Of a stretch of 64,000 bases of DNA, positions 9,245 to 16,940 are shown piece by piece. Under the pieces are notes generated by a model. That model had not been told where the DNA came from, searched no databases, and saw only the letters and a list, made by a program, of their open reading frames with translations. Numbering within the stretch: position 1 is the first letter of the stretch; every line of letters starts with the position of its first letter. The DNA is from Planctomycetota bacterium (GTDB lineage: Bacteria; Planctomycetota; UBA1135), in NCBI GenBank assembly GCA_008501825.1, contig QQUA01000007.1:62001-126000 (forward strand), given 5' to 3'. Made by a program: the position numbers and the translations under genes.

Positions 9245-12198
9245 GCTTGTTTCCGCTGCGGGTAATCTTCCATGCCGTTGGCTTGCGCCAAATTCGACAA
9301 GCTCATTTCCAGCCAGGAATCGGCTTGCCAAAGGAATTCCACCTCCTGATTTTCGCACACCATGCCGATGCTGGCCCAACGCAAGGTCCGAAGTTCTTCG
9401 GCCACGGATTCCATCCATTCTTCCGCCACCTCCAAGAGGAAGCGGGTGGGGGTTTCGCTAAACAACCGAAGGGCGGCGTTTTGATCGCGGTCGAGAGAAG
9501 AGACGGCGGCGACCGGAACTCGGGCCAAATCCAGGATGGCTCCGAAACCGCCGCCTAGGGCCATTTCGGAAACGGCCACCGCCAAGCCGCCTTCGGCGAG
9601 ATCATGGCAGGAAACGGCCAGGCCCCGGTCCAGAATCCGGTGGACGGCATCGAAAACGGCGGGAGCTTGATCGAAGTCCGGGCAAGGCGGTGGCGAGTCC
9701 GGCCACTGCAAGACATCGCCAAGGGCGGACCCGCCGCCTTCGGGACCGGTTTCTCCCACCAGAATCAATAGGTTGCCGGGTGCTTTGAAAAAGGTGGAGG
9801 AAGCCCGATTCACGTCAGCCACCGGTGCCACGGCGGTGCACAGCAGCGTCGGTGGGATGGCCACTTCCTGGTCTCCGACTCGATATTCGTTGTTCAAGGA
9901 GTCCTTACCGGAAATGAAGGGCGCCCCGTAAGCCAAAGCGGCGTCGCGGCAAGCTTCCGCCGCCCGGACCAGGCTGCCCAAGCGATCGGCCTTGCGGCAA
10001 TCGCCCCAACAGAAGTTGTCCAAGATGGCGACTTGGTGGGGGGTGCCGCCGGCGGCCACCACGTTTCGAATCGCCTCGTCGATGGCGCAGGCGGTGCCGG
10101 CGTAGGGATCCACCAAAGCGATTCGCGGAGCCAGGCCGCAACCGATGGCGACGCCACCGGGAAGTTCCAAGCGAGGTTTTAAAACGGTGCCGTCTCCGGG
10201 GCCGCGGCCGGCAGGACCCTGATAGGGCTTTCGAGCCGTCCCGCCTTGGACCTCGTGGTCGTATTGACGCACCACCCATTCTTTGGAAACCACGGCCGGG
10301 TGGGCCAAGACTTGGGCGAGGAGATCTTCCCGGGAACGTATTTCATCCGCCTTGGGCCAAGGCGTGGCGGACCAGGTGGGGCGGATCACTTCCGCCGATC
10401 TTTGCGGTTGCGGAACGCCGCCGTGAAGAAAGTCCATGGCCATGTCGCCGACTTCTTCTCCGTGCCAAAGCAACTGCAAACGACCGCTATCGGTGAATTC
10501 GCCGAGAACCACGGCTTCCACCTCATAGCTTTCACAAAGTTGCAACAAGGCCGCTTCGTGTTCCGGGGGCACGGCCAAAACCATGCGTTCCTGAGCTTCG
10601 CTGATCCAAATCTCGTCGTAACCCAAACCGGCGTACTTCAAAGGGGCGGCACTCAACTCGACCACGGCGCCCCCGGCCAAACCCCGGTCCGCCCTGCCTT
10701 CCCCCATTTCGCCGATGGCGGAAGAAAATCCGCCGGCGCCACAATCGGTGACCGCCCGATACAACCGGCGATCCCGGGCCGCCATCATCAAATCCAGCAC
10801 TTTCTTTTCGGTAATCGGATCGCCGATTTGCACTGCGGTGGCGTCCACGCTTTCACTTTCTTCGTGTAAAGCTTCCGAAGAGAAAGTCGCGCCGTGAATT
10901 CCGTCCCGACCGGTGCGACCGCCGATGGCTACGATTTTGTCTCCCGGCAGGACTTCCTTATGCACGCAATCTCGGGGCAACTCGCCGATACAACCGGCGA
11001 AAACCAGAGGATTGGCGGTGTAACCGGGGTGCCGCAAAACGGTGCCGGAAACCGTGGGAATGCCCATCCGGTTGCCGTAGTCCCGAACCCCGGCAATCAC
11101 GCCTTCCAAAACCCGATCCGGGTGTAAGCAACCAGGCGGCAATTGCTCGAAGGGCAGTTTTTCCGGGCCGACGCAGAAGACGTCGGTGGCGGCGAAAGGC
11201 CGCGCTCCCAAGCCGGTGCCGAGAATGTCTCGAATCACCCCGCCGATGCCGGTTCCGGCGCCGCCATAAGGTTCCAGCGCGCTGGGATGATTGTGAGTTT
11301 CCACCTTGACCGCGATGCCGATGTCGTCGGTAAAGGCCACCACTCCGGCATTGTCTTCAAAGACGCTCCAGCACCAGTCCGGCGACAGGCGCCGGGTGGC
11401 TTCGAATACGGTTTCCTTCAACAGGTTTTGAAATTCTCGCCGTTCCAGTTCGGCGCCGTTTTCATCCCGCACCACCAATCTCACCGGACCGGTCAAAGTC
11501 TTGTGTTTGCAGTGCTCGGACCAGGTTTGGGCAAAGGTCTCCAGCTCGACGTCGGTCGGTTCCCGGCCTTCCTGCCGATAGTGGCTTTGAATGGCCTCCA
11601 TCTCCTCTTGAGATAGGGCCAGGGCCATGCTCCGGCTCAGAGCCACCAGGGCTGCCCCGTCCATTTCCAGGATCGGCACCTCCCGCCTCGGGCTGGGGCG
11701 AGGGTTGGGTTGCGGGTGCAAAGCCAGGGCCCGGTCGCCGAGGCAGACTTCCTCGATGGTGGGGTTGGCCAGGGCCCGGCCGCCGGCATTCAGAAAGGCC
11801 CCGGGGTCGACTTGGCCCTCCACCCGGAACCAGCGATAGCTTTCCGCCTGCTCCACCGGGATCTCCAAGATGCCGAAGGCCCGGCAGGCGGTTTGTCCTT
11901 CCGGATCGGCCACGCCGGCTCGCCGCCGCACCACCAAGGTGGCGGCTCCCAACTCGGGGATTTCGCCCGGGGCCAGGATGCGGGCCTCCTCGACCACCGG
12001 ATCGGCCAAGACTTCCTGAGTCAAGTGCTCGACTTGCTGGGCCGATAAGTTGGACGGCAATAGGAAGCCCCGGCCGCTGGTGAGCTCCGGAGTCAGGGAT
12101 AATCCCCGTTGGGCCAAGGCCTTGCGGGCCGCCTTGCCGACCGGGTCGGGCCGGCCTTTTCGGGGTTCCAATTCAATTCGCCAGGCGCCTGAGCTCAT
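9241..12198 (-). CDS. purL: Phosphoribosylformylglycinamidine synthase, large subunit with PurS-like N-terminus
   Basis: 985 residues. FGAM synthase turns FGAR, ATP and ammonia into FGAM. The first ~210 residues contain two PurS-like segments, one beginning RIELEPRKGRPDPVGKAARK and one beginning TLVVRRRAG. The synthase core follows with TWSEHCKHKTL, VKVETHNHPSALEPYGGA and a second ATPase-like half with DCGAGG and SGKDSLNNE. The glutaminase is the separate purQ, so this is a PurS-PurL fusion rather than the single-chain ~1,300-residue enzyme. I chose the ATG at 12198, where similarity starts, over an upstream ATG that would run toward accA. It is divergent from accA. Confidence 0.94.
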   Translation of the reverse strand: MSSGAWRIELEPRKGRPDPVGKAARKALAQRGLSLTPELTSGRGFLLPSNLSAQQVEHLTQEVLADPVVEEARILAPGEIPELGAATLVVRRRAGVADPEGQTACRAFGILEIPVEQAESYRWFRVEGQVDPGAFLNAGGRALANPTIEEVCLGDRALALHPQPNPRPSPRREVPILEMDGAALVALSRSMALALSQEEMEAIQSHYRQEGREPTDVELETFAQTWSEHCKHKTLTGPVRLVVRDENGAELERREFQNLLKETVFEATRRLSPDWCWSVFEDNAGVVAFTDDIGIAVKVETHNHPSALEPYGGAGTGIGGVIRDILGTGLGARPFAATDVFCVGPEKLPFEQLPPGCLHPDRVLEGVIAGVRDYGNRMGIPTVSGTVLRHPGYTANPLVFAGCIGELPRDCVHKEVLPGDKIVAIGGRTGRDGIHGATFSSEALHEESESVDATAVQIGDPITEKKVLDLMMAARDRRLYRAVTDCGAGGFSSAIGEMGEGRADRGLAGGAVVELSAAPLKYAGLGYDEIWISEAQERMVLAVPPEHEAALLQLCESYEVEAVVLGEFTDSGRLQLLWHGEEVGDMAMDFLHGGVPQPQRSAEVIRPTWSATPWPKADEIRSREDLLAQVLAHPAVVSKEWVVRQYDHEVQGGTARKPYQGPAGRGPGDGTVLKPRLELPGGVAIGCGLAPRIALVDPYAGTACAIDEAIRNVVAAGGTPHQVAILDNFCWGDCRKADRLGSLVRAAEACRDAALAYGAPFISGKDSLNNEYRVGDQEVAIPPTLLCTAVAPVADVNRASSTFFKAPGNLLILVGETGPEGGGSALGDVLQWPDSPPPCPDFDQAPAVFDAVHRILDRGLAVSCHDLAEGGLAVAVSEMALGGGFGAILDLARVPVAAVSSLDRDQNAALRLFSETPTRFLLEVAEEWMESVAEELRTLRWASIGMVCENQEVEFLWQADSWLEMSLSNLAQANGMEDYPQRKQA

Positions 12199-12319
12199 GC
12201 GGAAGCTTCGATGGAGGCCGATGAGGCAGTATCCTAGGAGCGCGCCTGGGCGGCCGCCACGGATGTCGCCCCCTTCCACCATGGCCAAAGACCGCAACGC
12301 CAAGCGCCCGACCGGGCCG

Positions 12320-13423
12320 ATGTCCCTTCCGTTCGAAAAGCCGATCGAAGACGTCCGTTCTCGATTGGAAGAACTGGAAGAACTGGCTTCGAAAACCAGC
12401 CACGATCTCAGCGAGGAAATCGATTTTTATCGCGATCGGCTGGCCCGGCTGACCAAGGAGACTTACTCGCAGCTTTCTCCTTGGCAGCGAGTGCAAGTCG
12501 CCCGGCATCCCGATCGCCCGTTGACCTCGGACTACATCCAACACCTGTTCGAGGATTTCATCGAGCTCCATGGGGACGGTTTTTACTCCGACGATCCGGC
12601 GGTGGTGACCGGATTGGGAACCATGGACGGCCGCAAAATGATGGTCATCGGCCACCGCAAGGGCCGCGCCACCAAGGAGCGGATGAAGTGCAATTTCGGT
12701 TCCGCTCATCCGGAAGGTTATCGCAAAGCCTTGCGCAAGATGCAGTTGGCGGAGCGCCTGCAAATTCCGATTTTGACCTTGGTGAATACCCCCGGCGCCT
12801 ATCCCGGCGTTGGAGCGGAAGAACGAGGGCAAGCCCGTGCCATCGCCGAAAACATCTTCGAGATGTTCGGCATCAAGGTCCCGATCCTGGTGGTGGTGAT
12901 CGGGGAAGGCGGATCCGGCGGAGCTTTGGGCATCGCCGTCGGCGATCGGGTCGGCATGCTGGAGAACTCCTGGTACTCGGTGATTTCTCCCGAAGGCTGC
13001 GCTTCCATCCTGTGGCGCAGCGCCGAGGGCAAGGAACAAGCCGCCGAAGCCCTGAAATTGACCGCCGGCGACTTACAAACCCTGGGCATCGTCGATCAGG
13101 TGATTCCGGAACCCATGGGCGGGGCTCACCAGCAGCCCGATCTGGCCATGGCGGCGGTGAAAGATCAGATCGTGGCCTGGTTGGATGAATTGCAAGCCAA
13201 GCCTTTGACGGATTTGTTGGCCGAACGCCACCTCAAGTTCCGCCAGATTGCCCAAATCGAAGCCCAGGCCGAAGCTCCGGCCGGCGACGGCGAGGCCGAA
13301 GCGGCGCCGGCCGACCCGCAATTGTCCGATCGTCGCTTCCCGCCTCTACGCGACGAGGATTTACCGGCTCCGGAGGTGGGGCGGCGATCCGCTCCAAAGC
13401 CCGATCCGGGGACTAAATATTGA
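12320..13423 (+). CDS. accA: Acetyl-CoA carboxylase carboxyltransferase subunit alpha
   Basis: Transfers carboxyl from biotin to acetyl-CoA with AccD, the first step of fatty acid synthesis. The N-terminus MSLPFEKPIEDVRSRLEELE and ARHPDRP match the family. The core has VNTPGAYPGVGAEERGQA, VVIGEGGSGGALGIAVGD and SPEGCASILWR. It is 367 residues long, with an extra ~45-residue Pro/Ala/acidic tail absent from the usual ~320-residue form. An in-frame ATG at 12281 (or 12263) could add 13-19 residues; no Shine-Dalgarno favours any of them. No accD is in the window. Confidence 0.95.
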   Translation: MSLPFEKPIEDVRSRLEELEELASKTSHDLSEEIDFYRDRLARLTKETYSQLSPWQRVQVARHPDRPLTSDYIQHLFEDFIELHGDGFYSDDPAVVTGLGTMDGRKMMVIGHRKGRATKERMKCNFGSAHPEGYRKALRKMQLAERLQIPILTLVNTPGAYPGVGAEERGQARAIAENIFEMFGIKVPILVVVIGEGGSGGALGIAVGDRVGMLENSWYSVISPEGCASILWRSAEGKEQAAEALKLTAGDLQTLGIVDQVIPEPMGGAHQQPDLAMAAVKDQIVAWLDELQAKPLTDLLAERHLKFRQIAQIEAQAEAPAGDGEAEAAPADPQLSDRRFPPLRDEDLPAPEVGRRSAPKPDPGTKY

Positions 13424-13485
13424 GTTCCGGCGAGGGAAAACCCCCCAACGAGCCGGAGATCGCCTCCGTAGAAGAGGAGGAAACC

Positions 13486-14139
13486 ATGGGCGCACCCCAA
13501 CTACGCTTGATCCACCACCAGCCGCAGGCGGCGGAAGCCGCTGAAGCCGGTGTTGTCGATCCCTGGGAAAGCCTCAGCGATGAAGAGCTTTTGGCTCTGT
13601 GTTGTAACGGCGAACGGGAAGCCTTCCGGCTCCTGGTCGAGCGTTACGAAGAGAAGGCTTTCCACACCGTTCGACCGATCGTCGGCTCGGTGGAAACCAC
13701 TCGGGAAGTTGTCCAAGAGGCCTTCCTCAAGGTTTACGCCAATCGCGAACGCTTCGACCTGCGGCGCAAATTCAGCGCCTGGTTCTACCGCATCTTGCGC
13801 AACCAAGCGGTCGATCGGGTTCGGCGCCAAGCCCCCGGCACCCCGGGAGCGGCGGTGGAATTGGTCGGTGATTGGGACGGGAAAGGCTCCGGTCCGGTCC
13901 ATGCTGCCTCGATTCAAGAGCGGCAACAGGCCGTCCGGCGCATTTTGAAGGATCTTCCCGCCAAGTTCCGCTTAGTGCTTTCGCTCCGGGATTTGGAAGG
14001 CTTGAGCTGCGGGGAGATCGCCGAGCGGGTCGGGACCACGCCGGGAACCGTGCGTTGGCGCCTGCATCACGCCCGCAAATTGTTCCGAGAACATTGGGAA
14101 CGCCTCCTCGGAGAAGAGGAGGGAGGAGCGGAGCTATGA
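13486..14139 (+). CDS. ECF-type sigma-70 family sigma factor
   Basis: 217 residues. Region 2 is visible as FRLLVERYEEKAFHTV, then VVQEAFLKVYANRERFD and SAWFYRILRNQAVDRVRR. Region 4 follows with LPAKFRLVLSLRDLEGLSCGEIA and a helix-turn-helix at VGTTPGTVRWRLHHARKLF. The start is set by a strong GAGGAGG six bases before the ATG at 13486; the frame is open back to a TTG that overlaps the accA stop. The anti-sigma gene follows with an ATGA overlap, and an HtrA-like gene comes next. This order suggests a cell-envelope stress pathway, by inference. Confidence 0.92.
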   Translation: MGAPQLRLIHHQPQAAEAAEAGVVDPWESLSDEELLALCCNGEREAFRLLVERYEEKAFHTVRPIVGSVETTREVVQEAFLKVYANRERFDLRRKFSAWFYRILRNQAVDRVRRQAPGTPGAAVELVGDWDGKGSGPVHAASIQERQQAVRRILKDLPAKFRLVLSLRDLEGLSCGEIAERVGTTPGTVRWRLHHARKLFREHWERLLGEEEGGAEL

Positions 14140-14744
14140 ACTGCCGCACCGCCCGCAAATGGATGCCGTTGCACTGCGGTGGAGACCTGCCACTGGCCAA
14201 GGCTCGGGCTTTGGAAGAGCACGTCGCCAGTTGCCAGACTTGCCACGGGGAATTGCAGACATTCCGGGATTCCCGGGGAGCTTTGCTTGAGCTTCGGGAC
14301 GAAGCCGATCTGAACGCTTCCGGCATCTGGCGGACTTTGGAGCCGCGTTTGGATGCTCTGGAAGCTCGCCAGGCTCGGATTCTGCCGTGGTATCGGCAAC
14401 CCCGCAGGCTGGCCCAAGCTGCTGCCGTGTTGGTTTTGGTGGCCGCTGCCCCGCTGATGTGGCCGGGCTTGCCCTCCGGAGGAGAGGATGGCTCCACCTC
14501 CGGCAACGGTGGTTTGGCTGAATTGGCCGGAGGCAACGGTGCCGGCGCCACTCCCGTCATGCCGGCCGTGCATGGGGCCCTTCCTGCCCAAAGCCCCGAT
14601 CCCGGCGGCTTGACCCCGGTACCTAGGGACGCTCAAGAGCGCATGATTCTGCGCATGGCCAACCAGCACAACGGCGTATTGCCTCTTGGTCAGCAAGGAC
14701 CGACGACGAGGCTGGTTGGAAATGGCGGAGATGTCGAATACTGA
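14136..14744 (+). CDS. Zinc-finger anti-sigma factor, membrane-spanning
   Basis: 202 residues. The N-terminal zf-HC2-type domain has an early Cys (C3) and the HVASCQTC motif that coordinates zinc and holds the sigma factor. One membrane helix lies near residues 90-108 (RLAQAAAVLVLVAAAPLMW), so the Gly/Ser-rich tail is periplasmic. The start ATG overlaps the sigma stop (ATGA), as is usual for sigma/anti-sigma pairs. The periplasmic part would be where a site-1 protease acts, yet the next gene encodes a protease fold with no catalytic residues. Confidence 0.88.
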   Translation: MNCRTARKWMPLHCGGDLPLAKARALEEHVASCQTCHGELQTFRDSRGALLELRDEADLNASGIWRTLEPRLDALEARQARILPWYRQPRRLAQAAAVLVLVAAAPLMWPGLPSGGEDGSTSGNGGLAELAGGNGAGATPVMPAVHGALPAQSPDPGGLTPVPRDAQERMILRMANQHNGVLPLGQQGPTTRLVGNGGDVEY

Positions 14745-14816
14745 TCCAGCACAGGGATGGGGGGGCTACCTCCCGTGGCTCGGCTTCTCGGGCCCTGAAA
14801 TTCGGACAAGTCGACC

Positions 14817-15917
14817 ATGATTGTTGAAATTGCCCTGTTGTGGCTGCAGGAGGGAGTTGGAACTCCGCCGCCACAGGCCGAGCCGATTTTGGAACCTTCG
14901 CCGGTGCAAGTCATGGTGACCCCCAGCGCCTTGGGTGCCTTGGAGGAGGAGCTGTGGAATTTGCACCAGGGGCTGCGGCCGAATTTGGTGCAAATCCGGA
15001 TCGACTTGGACCCGGAAGCCAAAGATCCTCAGTTCGAACCGGAGTGGGATCTATTGGTCTCCGGCGTCTTCATTGCCGAAGGCGGGTACGTGGTGGCCCC
15101 GGGTCCGGTAGAAGCCGGCGAGGGGCGGATTTCGGTGGTGCGTTTCGACGGCAAGACCTTTCCGGCCAAATTGATCGATGCCGACGTCGATTACGGACTC
15201 ATTCTGTTGAAGGCTCCGGCTCTGGGCTTGAAGAATCCGACTTTCGGCCACCCCTCCTGTATGCGGGTGGGTTCGGTCGCCATCGGGTTGAGCAATCCCT
15301 TCGGCACCTTGGAAGGTTCCCTGAGTTTGGGTTTTGTGGCCGGTAAATACCGAGGGCTGGGGCAAGCGAAAAACCTGCTGCAACTGAGCAATCCGGTGAA
15401 CCCCGGCGACGGCGGTGGCTTGGTGGCCAACCGCAAAGGCCAATTGGTCGGCATCATGCTGACTTCGATGCAGCAATTGGGCTGGTCTTTGGCTCAATCC
15501 GGGGAACAAGACACCCAGGGGTGGCATCGAGCTCAAGGCATTTCTTTTGCCGTGCCGGTGGATCAGGTCTTGCGGACCTTCCAGAAGCACCTTCCTTGGA
15601 AGCTGCCGCCGACGCCGCGACTTGGAGTGGCCATACGGCAACACTTCGATCCAGAGCGCCGGGCTGCCCTCGGCCTGCCGGGTTCTTGGAGTTTGGAAGT
15701 CGTGGAAGTGGTTCCCGGCGGGCCGGCGGCCAAAGCCGGGATGAAAAAGGGCGATATCCTGCTTGCGATTGGCGGTCAGAACTTGGTCAGCACCGATTGC
15801 GTGGCCGAGGTGTTATGGCAGGTTCGCGGCCGGACCCAGATGATTTTTCTCCGCGGCGAAATTCGCCAGCAGGCTCAAGTGCAATTACAACCGGTGGTGG
15901 CCGGTTCGAAGCACTAA
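14817..15917 (+). CDS. HtrA/DegP-like pseudoprotease with PDZ domain
   Basis: 366 residues with the layout of S1C proteases: trypsin-like domain about 50-260 and a PDZ domain about 265-360 (VVPGGPAAKAGMKKGDILLAI). All three catalytic positions appear lost. The usual TNxHVV becomes APGPVE (His to Pro97). The Asp of D-LAVLK is Gly127 in YGLILLK. GNSGGPL becomes GDGGGLV (Ser to Gly199). The surrounding fold signatures (LSNPFG, ISFAVPVDQV) are kept, so this is not random decay. It probably binds rather than cuts peptides. The N-terminus is only weakly hydrophobic (MIVEIALLWL), so export is unsure. It follows the ECF sigma and anti-sigma genes by 72 bp. Confidence 0.85.
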   Translation: MIVEIALLWLQEGVGTPPPQAEPILEPSPVQVMVTPSALGALEEELWNLHQGLRPNLVQIRIDLDPEAKDPQFEPEWDLLVSGVFIAEGGYVVAPGPVEAGEGRISVVRFDGKTFPAKLIDADVDYGLILLKAPALGLKNPTFGHPSCMRVGSVAIGLSNPFGTLEGSLSLGFVAGKYRGLGQAKNLLQLSNPVNPGDGGGLVANRKGQLVGIMLTSMQQLGWSLAQSGEQDTQGWHRAQGISFAVPVDQVLRTFQKHLPWKLPPTPRLGVAIRQHFDPERRAALGLPGSWSLEVVEVVPGGPAAKAGMKKGDILLAIGGQNLVSTDCVAEVLWQVRGRTQMIFLRGEIRQQAQVQLQPVVAGSKH

Positions 15918-15923
15918 TCGAGT

Positions 15924-16940
15924 TCAACCCTGGGTTGGGGTGGCTTCTTCGGCCAGCGGCACGTTGCGGCGGTTTTTATAGGCCTGAATGATGTCCAGAG
16001 CCTGAGATACTTCTTTGCTTTCGATTTGGCGATCGGTTTTCCGCACGAACACTTGCATGTCTTCGGCGGCGGAACTCAGATCGCCCAGCCAGTAGTAACA
16101 CATGCCGCGGTTGAAGTACTCGTGGGAGAGTTCAGGATTCAAATTTAAGATGGCGGTGAGTTCTTGCACCGCCTCGGGGTATCTCTTGCTGTCCAAGTAA
16201 ATCGTAGAAGCCAAGCCGCGGGCTTGGATTTCCATGTCCATGTCGGCTCGGAGCGCTTGGCGCAGGGCGTCTTCTTGCGGCAGGTTCAATTCCTGCAAAG
16301 CCAATCGTTCATTCTTATAGCGCCGGGAGCGTTGCAACTCCGAAATCAGCTTTTGCAAGACTTCCAAGGCTTCATCGGTGCGCTCCATGTGGGTATAGCA
16401 GTTGGCCAGCAACCGCATGGTGAAGCGATCGTCGGGAATGGCGGTGGAAGTTTCGGATAAAAACTCTTCGGCCTGATTCAAGTGATCTTCGGCTTTGCCC
16501 TGGGCCGTTTCCGCTCGAGTTTTCATGTCCGCCAAGGATTCCCCTTCTTCTCCGGCCATTTCTTCCAAACGGGCTTCCAAAATGGCCGACTCGCCCAACA
16601 GGAATTCAGCGTAGCGGAGGTGATATTCCCCCAAGGAATACGTGGTGCGGTAATCCGGATCCAGATCGTGGGCCTTTTCCAGATATTCCCTGGCGGCGGC
16701 CACGTGTTTGAGATCTCGCCATTGCAGCAGCGTTCGTCCCATCACCAAATTCAGTTTGGGATGATCCGGCTCCAGAGCCAGGCCCATGCTGGCTTGCTGT
16801 TGCGCCCGGGGCAGATCGCCCACGTCGTAATACTGCCGCGCCCGGCGATAGAAATCCTCCAACCGGGTCAGCTCATTCTCTTCCGAGGAGGAGCAGGCCG
16901 CCAGCAGAAGGGTGAGGGCAAGCAGGTGGATGAACCGCAT
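15924..16940 (-). CDS. TPR-repeat lipoprotein
   Basis: 338 residues. The signal peptide ends in lipobox LLAACSSS (C16), so the protein is lipid-anchored. TPR-type helical repeats cover the mature chain, clearest at PRAQQQASMGLALEPDHPKL and near 265-300 (NPELSHEYFNRGMCYYWLGD). A charged coiled stretch lies in the middle. It would serve as a scaffold for protein assembly; no partner is evident. Its 3' end nearly touches that of the convergent HtrA-like gene (6 bp). Confidence 0.88.
   Translation of the reverse strand: MRFIHLLALTLLLAACSSSEENELTRLEDFYRRARQYYDVGDLPRAQQQASMGLALEPDHPKLNLVMGRTLLQWRDLKHVAAAREYLEKAHDLDPDYRTTYSLGEYHLRYAEFLLGESAILEARLEEMAGEEGESLADMKTRAETAQGKAEDHLNQAEEFLSETSTAIPDDRFTMRLLANCYTHMERTDEALEVLQKLISELQRSRRYKNERLALQELNLPQEDALRQALRADMDMEIQARGLASTIYLDSKRYPEAVQELTAILNLNPELSHEYFNRGMCYYWLGDLSSAAEDMQVFVRKTDRQIESKEVSQALDIIQAYKNRRNVPLAEEATPTQG

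Follow-up and report, generated by a model that had tools for sequence, protein, structure and literature searches.

Within the window, the whole 64,000-nucleotide stretch of planctomycete DNA analysed here, genes for an ECF sigma factor, a zf-HC2 anti-sigma factor and an HtrA-like protein follow one another between accA and a gene for a TPR protein (Table 1). The sigma factor is a short protein with both regions 2 and 4 of the ECF type, and shares 53-80% identity with its orthologues in the window's family; its reading frame continues without a stop back to a TTG at 13420, which overlaps the accA stop. The start of the anti-sigma gene overlaps the sigma stop (ATGA, 14136); its product combines a zinc-finger motif with a single predicted transmembrane (TM) segment and adjoins its sigma, as is characteristic of zf-HC2 membrane anti-sigma factors. 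The sigma/anti-sigma neighbourhood described in the first-pass annotation stands, as both genes lie directly ahead of the HtrA-like gene and the arrangement is kept across the family and in numerous other families of the phylum. The accA, sigma and anti-sigma genes are tightly packed (12050-14744), and accA is upstream of the sigma in nearly every member of the class examined; the two observations hint at a link between fatty-acid synthesis and the sigma. The TPR protein has a lipoprotein-like start (LAACSSS); its gene converges on the HtrA-like gene and is conserved in the family, and it may be part of the same envelope function. A search of plasmid DNA gave no match.

Table 1. Features of the sigma/anti-sigma/pseudoprotease locus (positions within the window)
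Feature	Position	Strand	Basis
ECF sigma factor, 217 aa	13486..14139	+	Pfam/NCBIfam; Sigma70_r2 6e-15, r4_2 9e-12
zf-HC2 zinc-finger anti-sigma factor, 202 aa	14136..14744	+	Pfam zf-HC2 1.9e-5, above Pfam cut-off
Predicted TM segment of anti-sigma, residues 92-110	14409..14465	+	hydropathy, 19-residue mean 1.83
Last codon of anti-sigma, Tyr202 (...GGDVEY), putative C-terminal PDZ ligand	14739..14741	+	
HtrA-like pseudoprotease, 366 aa	14817..15917	+	Pfam/NCBIfam, alignments
Degenerate trypsin-like domain, residues 82-213	15060..15455	+	Pfam PF13365; predicted structure
P97 at catalytic His position	15105..15107	+	alignments
G127 at catalytic Asp position	15195..15197	+	alignments
G199 at catalytic Ser position, within NPGDGGG	15411..15413	+	alignments
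PDZ domain, residues 267-336, LGV carboxylate-binding loop	15615..15824	+	Pfam; G270 invariant in family
accA, upstream gene, neighbour kept in whole class; true start uncertain	12050..13423	+	synteny
TPR protein, lipoprotein-like N-terminus, convergent conserved neighbour	15924..16940	-	Pfam scan, synteny

The third gene encodes a trypsin-like (S1C) domain followed by a C-terminal PDZ domain, the architecture of the HtrA/Deg proteins; Pfam/NCBIfam profiles score it at 1.5e-13 (Trypsin_2), 7e-11 (PDZ_6), 2e-33 (DegP/HtrA_DO) and 1e-21 (DegS). AlphaFold models the full-length protein with a pLDDT of 83.6 and the protease domain alone with 86.8, and the top PDB matches of the model in Foldseek are DegP, DegQ, DegS and HtrA1 (TM up to 0.76/0.85 for the protease domain), so that the HtrA fold and PDZ domain assigned at first reading are borne out by profile and model alike. 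Positions of the catalytic triad were taken from sequence alignment with DegP/DegQ (phmmer), with DegS and DegQ of E. coli and with the five other HtrAs of the same genome, all of which retain a complete triad. The residues proposed at first reading are exact in their numbering: P97, G127 and G199 align opposite His96, Asp126 and Ser201 of DegS, and no intact triad was found elsewhere in the chain in alignments with DegS/DegQ and the HtrAs of its own genome. None of the catalytic residues of the site-1 protease DegS is present; a short hydrophobic stretch is all that is seen at the N-terminus as a possible counterpart of the DegS membrane anchor, and the protein scores 77 bits against the DegS equivalog, which has a cut-off of 423 bits. 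The absence of catalysis keeps it from being classed with the proteases or with DegS; on its sequence it is best described as an HtrA by fold and PDZ domain that lacks the catalytic residues.

The gene is retained in 22 of the 26 genomes of the window's family (21 orthologues plus one diverged copy in G018 on a separate contig, L133), with the same synteny wherever the contig permits: purL (reverse), accA, sigma, anti-sigma, pseudo-HtrA, TPR and ndk (both reverse), and atpB. Two of the four genomes with no recovered orthologue, G010 and G019, possess the locus and lack the pseudoprotease gene. Across the family, residues such as P, V, I and F occupy the His column, and Gly predominates in the Asp column and, within NPGDGGG, in the Ser column; no protein in the orthologue alignments keeps two of the three triad residues, and in L054 one alternative alignment brings a His derived from an insertion near the His column. 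Other functional positions are preserved, as R179 and Q189, opposite R178 of the L3 loop and Q191 of DegS, are invariant in the family, and the corresponding positions are Arg and Gln in nearly all of the dead proteins. The dN/dS of the pseudoprotease is approximately 0.07 in the only two pairs for which it could be computed (0.134/1.93 and 0.204/2.92). Homologues throughout the family and in numerous others of the phylum share the loss of the triad as well as the gene neighbourhood; the label 'catalytically dead' and the reading as regulatory, beside a sigma/anti-sigma pair, hold on firmer ground than the single sequence could offer. An ordinary decaying HtrA copy, which the lost triad might suggest, is rejected as next to impossible: the gene is open, syntenic and under purifying selection in 22 of 26 genomes, dN/dS is low, and the proteins belong to a single ancient dead group; no relative with an active protease at this position was found among the dead-type genes of the locus. 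The pseudoprotease gene is considered, from these comparisons, to be ancient and under selection.

Beyond the family, two types of gene accompany the sigma: gene A, the degenerate trypsin-PDZ pseudoprotease, and gene B, which encodes a HEAT-like/PDZ protein. Within the class, both genes occur in families f2, f4, f6 and f7, most loci of f5 and f8 have B alone, and the window's family has A alone. All the sigma-containing places fetched from the other families of the class (L130, L137-L196) display the gene neighbourhood seen in the window; accA precedes the sigma at every one but a single place, and an anti-sigma is present at almost all of them. Among 43 loci fetched after a profile search beyond the class, 15 hold sigma, anti-sigma and A together, and these come from 12 further families; 17 Planctomycetota families combine a sigma, an anti-sigma and a dead HtrA, and the module extends over the phylum. 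In the A proteins from outside the class, His and Asp are absent wherever the columns are covered; the third column has Ser in four loci (L204, L213, L222 and L229) and at the remaining loci one of P, C, T, Q, A, Y and R. A full-triad HtrA is encoded a little downstream in six loci outside the class (L204, L206, L211, L240, L247 and L249). In a tree, 29 dead and 18 active HtrAs are parted by one branch with an SH-aLRT of 99.8, which is consistent with one old inactivation. B genes also occur in many other planctomycete families, often behind a protein of approximately 320-360 aa with a hydrophobic segment; no sigma was detected near many of the B genes outside the class, such as those at L216, L221, L225, L227, L231, L238 and L239, and loci of this kind were set aside.

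The C-terminus of the anti-sigma is the feature that goes with the presence of the pseudoprotease. In the family alignment the extracytoplasmic tail is poorly conserved and its last residue is conserved: 16 of 20 proteins finish with F, Y or W, residues that account for 3.1% of the tail. The two family members that lost the pseudoprotease have anti-sigmas ending in ...HPRR. Across the class an aromatic end is found in 24/31 loci with A versus 3/44 without; outside the class it is found in 14/15 loci with A, and the only locus there with an anti-sigma and no A (L245, which has a sigma and an active HtrA) ends in EKRR. Pooled, the aromatic end, mostly Phe, occurs at 38 of the 46 loci that have the pseudoprotease and at 3 of the 45 that lack it (p 3e-14, uncorrected for kinship), RNDF, EVDF, SLDF, RGEF and DVEY being typical; with one vote per family the association has p = 0.03 (17 vs 4 families). 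The gene was gained or lost only three to four times on the class tree, so an independent-pairs test of aromatic end against gene presence could not reach significance. The exceptions are eight loci with the pseudoprotease that end in H, L or R and three loci without it that end in an aromatic residue. His-ending anti-sigmas beside a pseudoprotease are seen at L054, L055, L140 and L144 (RGSH, VRPH, SRVH). In family f5 (L139, L153, L155, L163, L167, L181 and others) ...IR or ...VR is a frequent end of the B protein, and Arg is the last residue of most anti-sigmas, which may point to a further recognition code at the C-terminus. None of the 23 other zf-HC2 proteins from six of the genomes has an aromatic end. 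The strongest argument for a functional tie is that the aromatic end has lasted along deep branches on which the rest of the tail changed, together with its absence from the genomes' other anti-sigma-like proteins.

The locus suggests sensing via binding instead of cutting. Of the three suggestions in the first-pass annotation (a binding-only regulator of the anti-sigma, a stress sensor without cutting, or a chaperone), the first is best supported, since the anti-sigma ends in the manner expected of a PDZ ligand. The pseudoprotease would be the envelope-side partner of the anti-sigma encoded just upstream, and its PDZ domain would grip the extracytoplasmic tail by its free aromatic end (Phe/Tyr/Trp). 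The dead HtrA core would serve as a scaffold that holds the tail away from a genuine site-1 protease, much as RseA and MucA are protected by RseB and MucB. Unfolded outer-membrane proteins, whose C-termini also end in Phe/Trp, would compete for the PDZ domain when they accumulate; the tail, once released, would be cleaved first by an active HtrA, whose gene lies downstream in several relatives and elsewhere in the window's genome, and then by a site-2 protease, freeing the sigma. The genome encodes M50 site-2 proteases and five triad-bearing HtrAs, and four of its barrel proteins end in F, F, W and L. The N-terminus of the window's pseudoprotease (MIVEIALLWLQEG...) makes a poor signal peptide; clear ones are carried by relatives at this locus and form the main basis for predicting export of the window's protein. 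The reading as a whole, a selected pseudoprotease with its PDZ domain on the anti-sigma tail, acting as a shield and displaced by competing unfolded proteins, is given a probability of roughly one half.

In the main rival, the dead HtrA assists an active HtrA as its non-catalytic partner subunit or allosteric activator, in the style of MamO and MamE; the aromatic tail would then recruit the anti-sigma as a substrate to the active PDZ domain, and the pseudoprotease would promote cutting. MamO, an HtrA-derived magnetosome pseudoprotease, sets the precedent: its triad is dispensable, yet MamE-dependent proteolysis requires MamO itself (PMC4794232). The intact HtrAs close behind the module in the six loci named above and the preserved R178/Q191 positions, as needed for HtrA allostery, fit this rival; however, the locus yielded no active HtrA in the window's family or in f2, f4, f6 and f7, where the aromatic tail persists in all but f7, and at L245 an active HtrA without the pseudoprotease accompanies an anti-sigma that lacks the aromatic end. 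A helper of this type is considered unlikely here.

Rather unlikely as well is a pseudoprotease that is simply a product of the regulon, made by the operon to chaperone or scavenge unfolded envelope proteins with its trypsin fold and PDZ domain, and with no direct contact to the anti-sigma. An HtrA core can act as a chaperone without catalysis, as in the DegP Ser mutant, and HtrA-type genes sit in other sigma operons, namely algU-mucABCD and the mycobacterial sigE-rseA-htrA; a chaperone nevertheless leaves unexplained an aromatic anti-sigma end that is present with the gene and absent in the genomes' other anti-sigma-like proteins. It is quite improbable that the aromatic end is instead what the site-2 protease, or some other PDZ or tail-specific protease, takes hold of, and accompanies the pseudoprotease by shared descent: RseP does read the hydrophobic C-termini of trimmed RseA and the independent contrasts are few, but gene loss and loss of the aromatic end coincide within the window's family, and where a family has the HEAT-PDZ gene alone, Arg is mostly the last residue.

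If the binding-only reading proves true, a sensor of this type would be added to the known controls of anti-sigma proteolysis, and the locus would be a deep, conserved case of a bacterial pseudoprotease retained for signalling; it would also provide, in a single C-terminal residue, a first mechanistic handle on the sensing of envelope damage in planctomycetes, which are rich in ECF sigma factors. More tentative, and held at somewhat less than even odds, is its extension to a phylum-wide pathway in which the pseudoprotease is a PDZ receptor, the anti-sigma imitates the C-terminus of an outer-membrane protein, and the sigma is freed by competition for the binding site. The literature searched contains no account of a phylum-wide pseudoprotease in a sigma/anti-sigma operon with a PDZ-type anti-sigma C-terminus; the main ECF classification and two planctomycete papers lie outside its coverage, and an earlier notice of the context is possible.

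Among known systems, algU-mucABCD and sigE-rseA-htrA likewise have an HtrA gene inside a sigma/anti-sigma operon, but there, unlike at the planctomycete locus, the HtrA is an active protease. The DegS/AlgW-RseA/MucA systems share with this locus an ECF sigma, a membrane anti-sigma, an HtrA with a PDZ domain and aromatic C-termini as PDZ ligands, which are putative here; the planctomycete operon differs in that its HtrA lacks the catalytic residues and the anti-sigma itself bears the aromatic C-terminus. In those systems the PDZ domain of AlgW binds the C-terminal WVF of MucE and that of DegS binds YxF, while MucB and RseB shield MucA and RseA (PMC8545111). The pseudoprotease would resemble RseB/MucB as an envelope shield encoded right behind the anti-sigma, but it has a trypsin and PDZ fold; Pfam/NCBIfam scans of the third gene matched only trypsin/PDZ-type families and gave no RseB/MucB match. 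MamO is similar in being HtrA-derived, in the loss of catalysis with retention of the protein and in having an active HtrA nearby; unlike the planctomycete protein it binds metal, has a TauE domain and lacks a sigma/anti-sigma context (PMC4794232). HtrA pseudoproteases are already known from MamO; the fixation of one beside a sigma/anti-sigma pair across a phylum, together with a PDZ-type anti-sigma end, is the new part within the literature searched.
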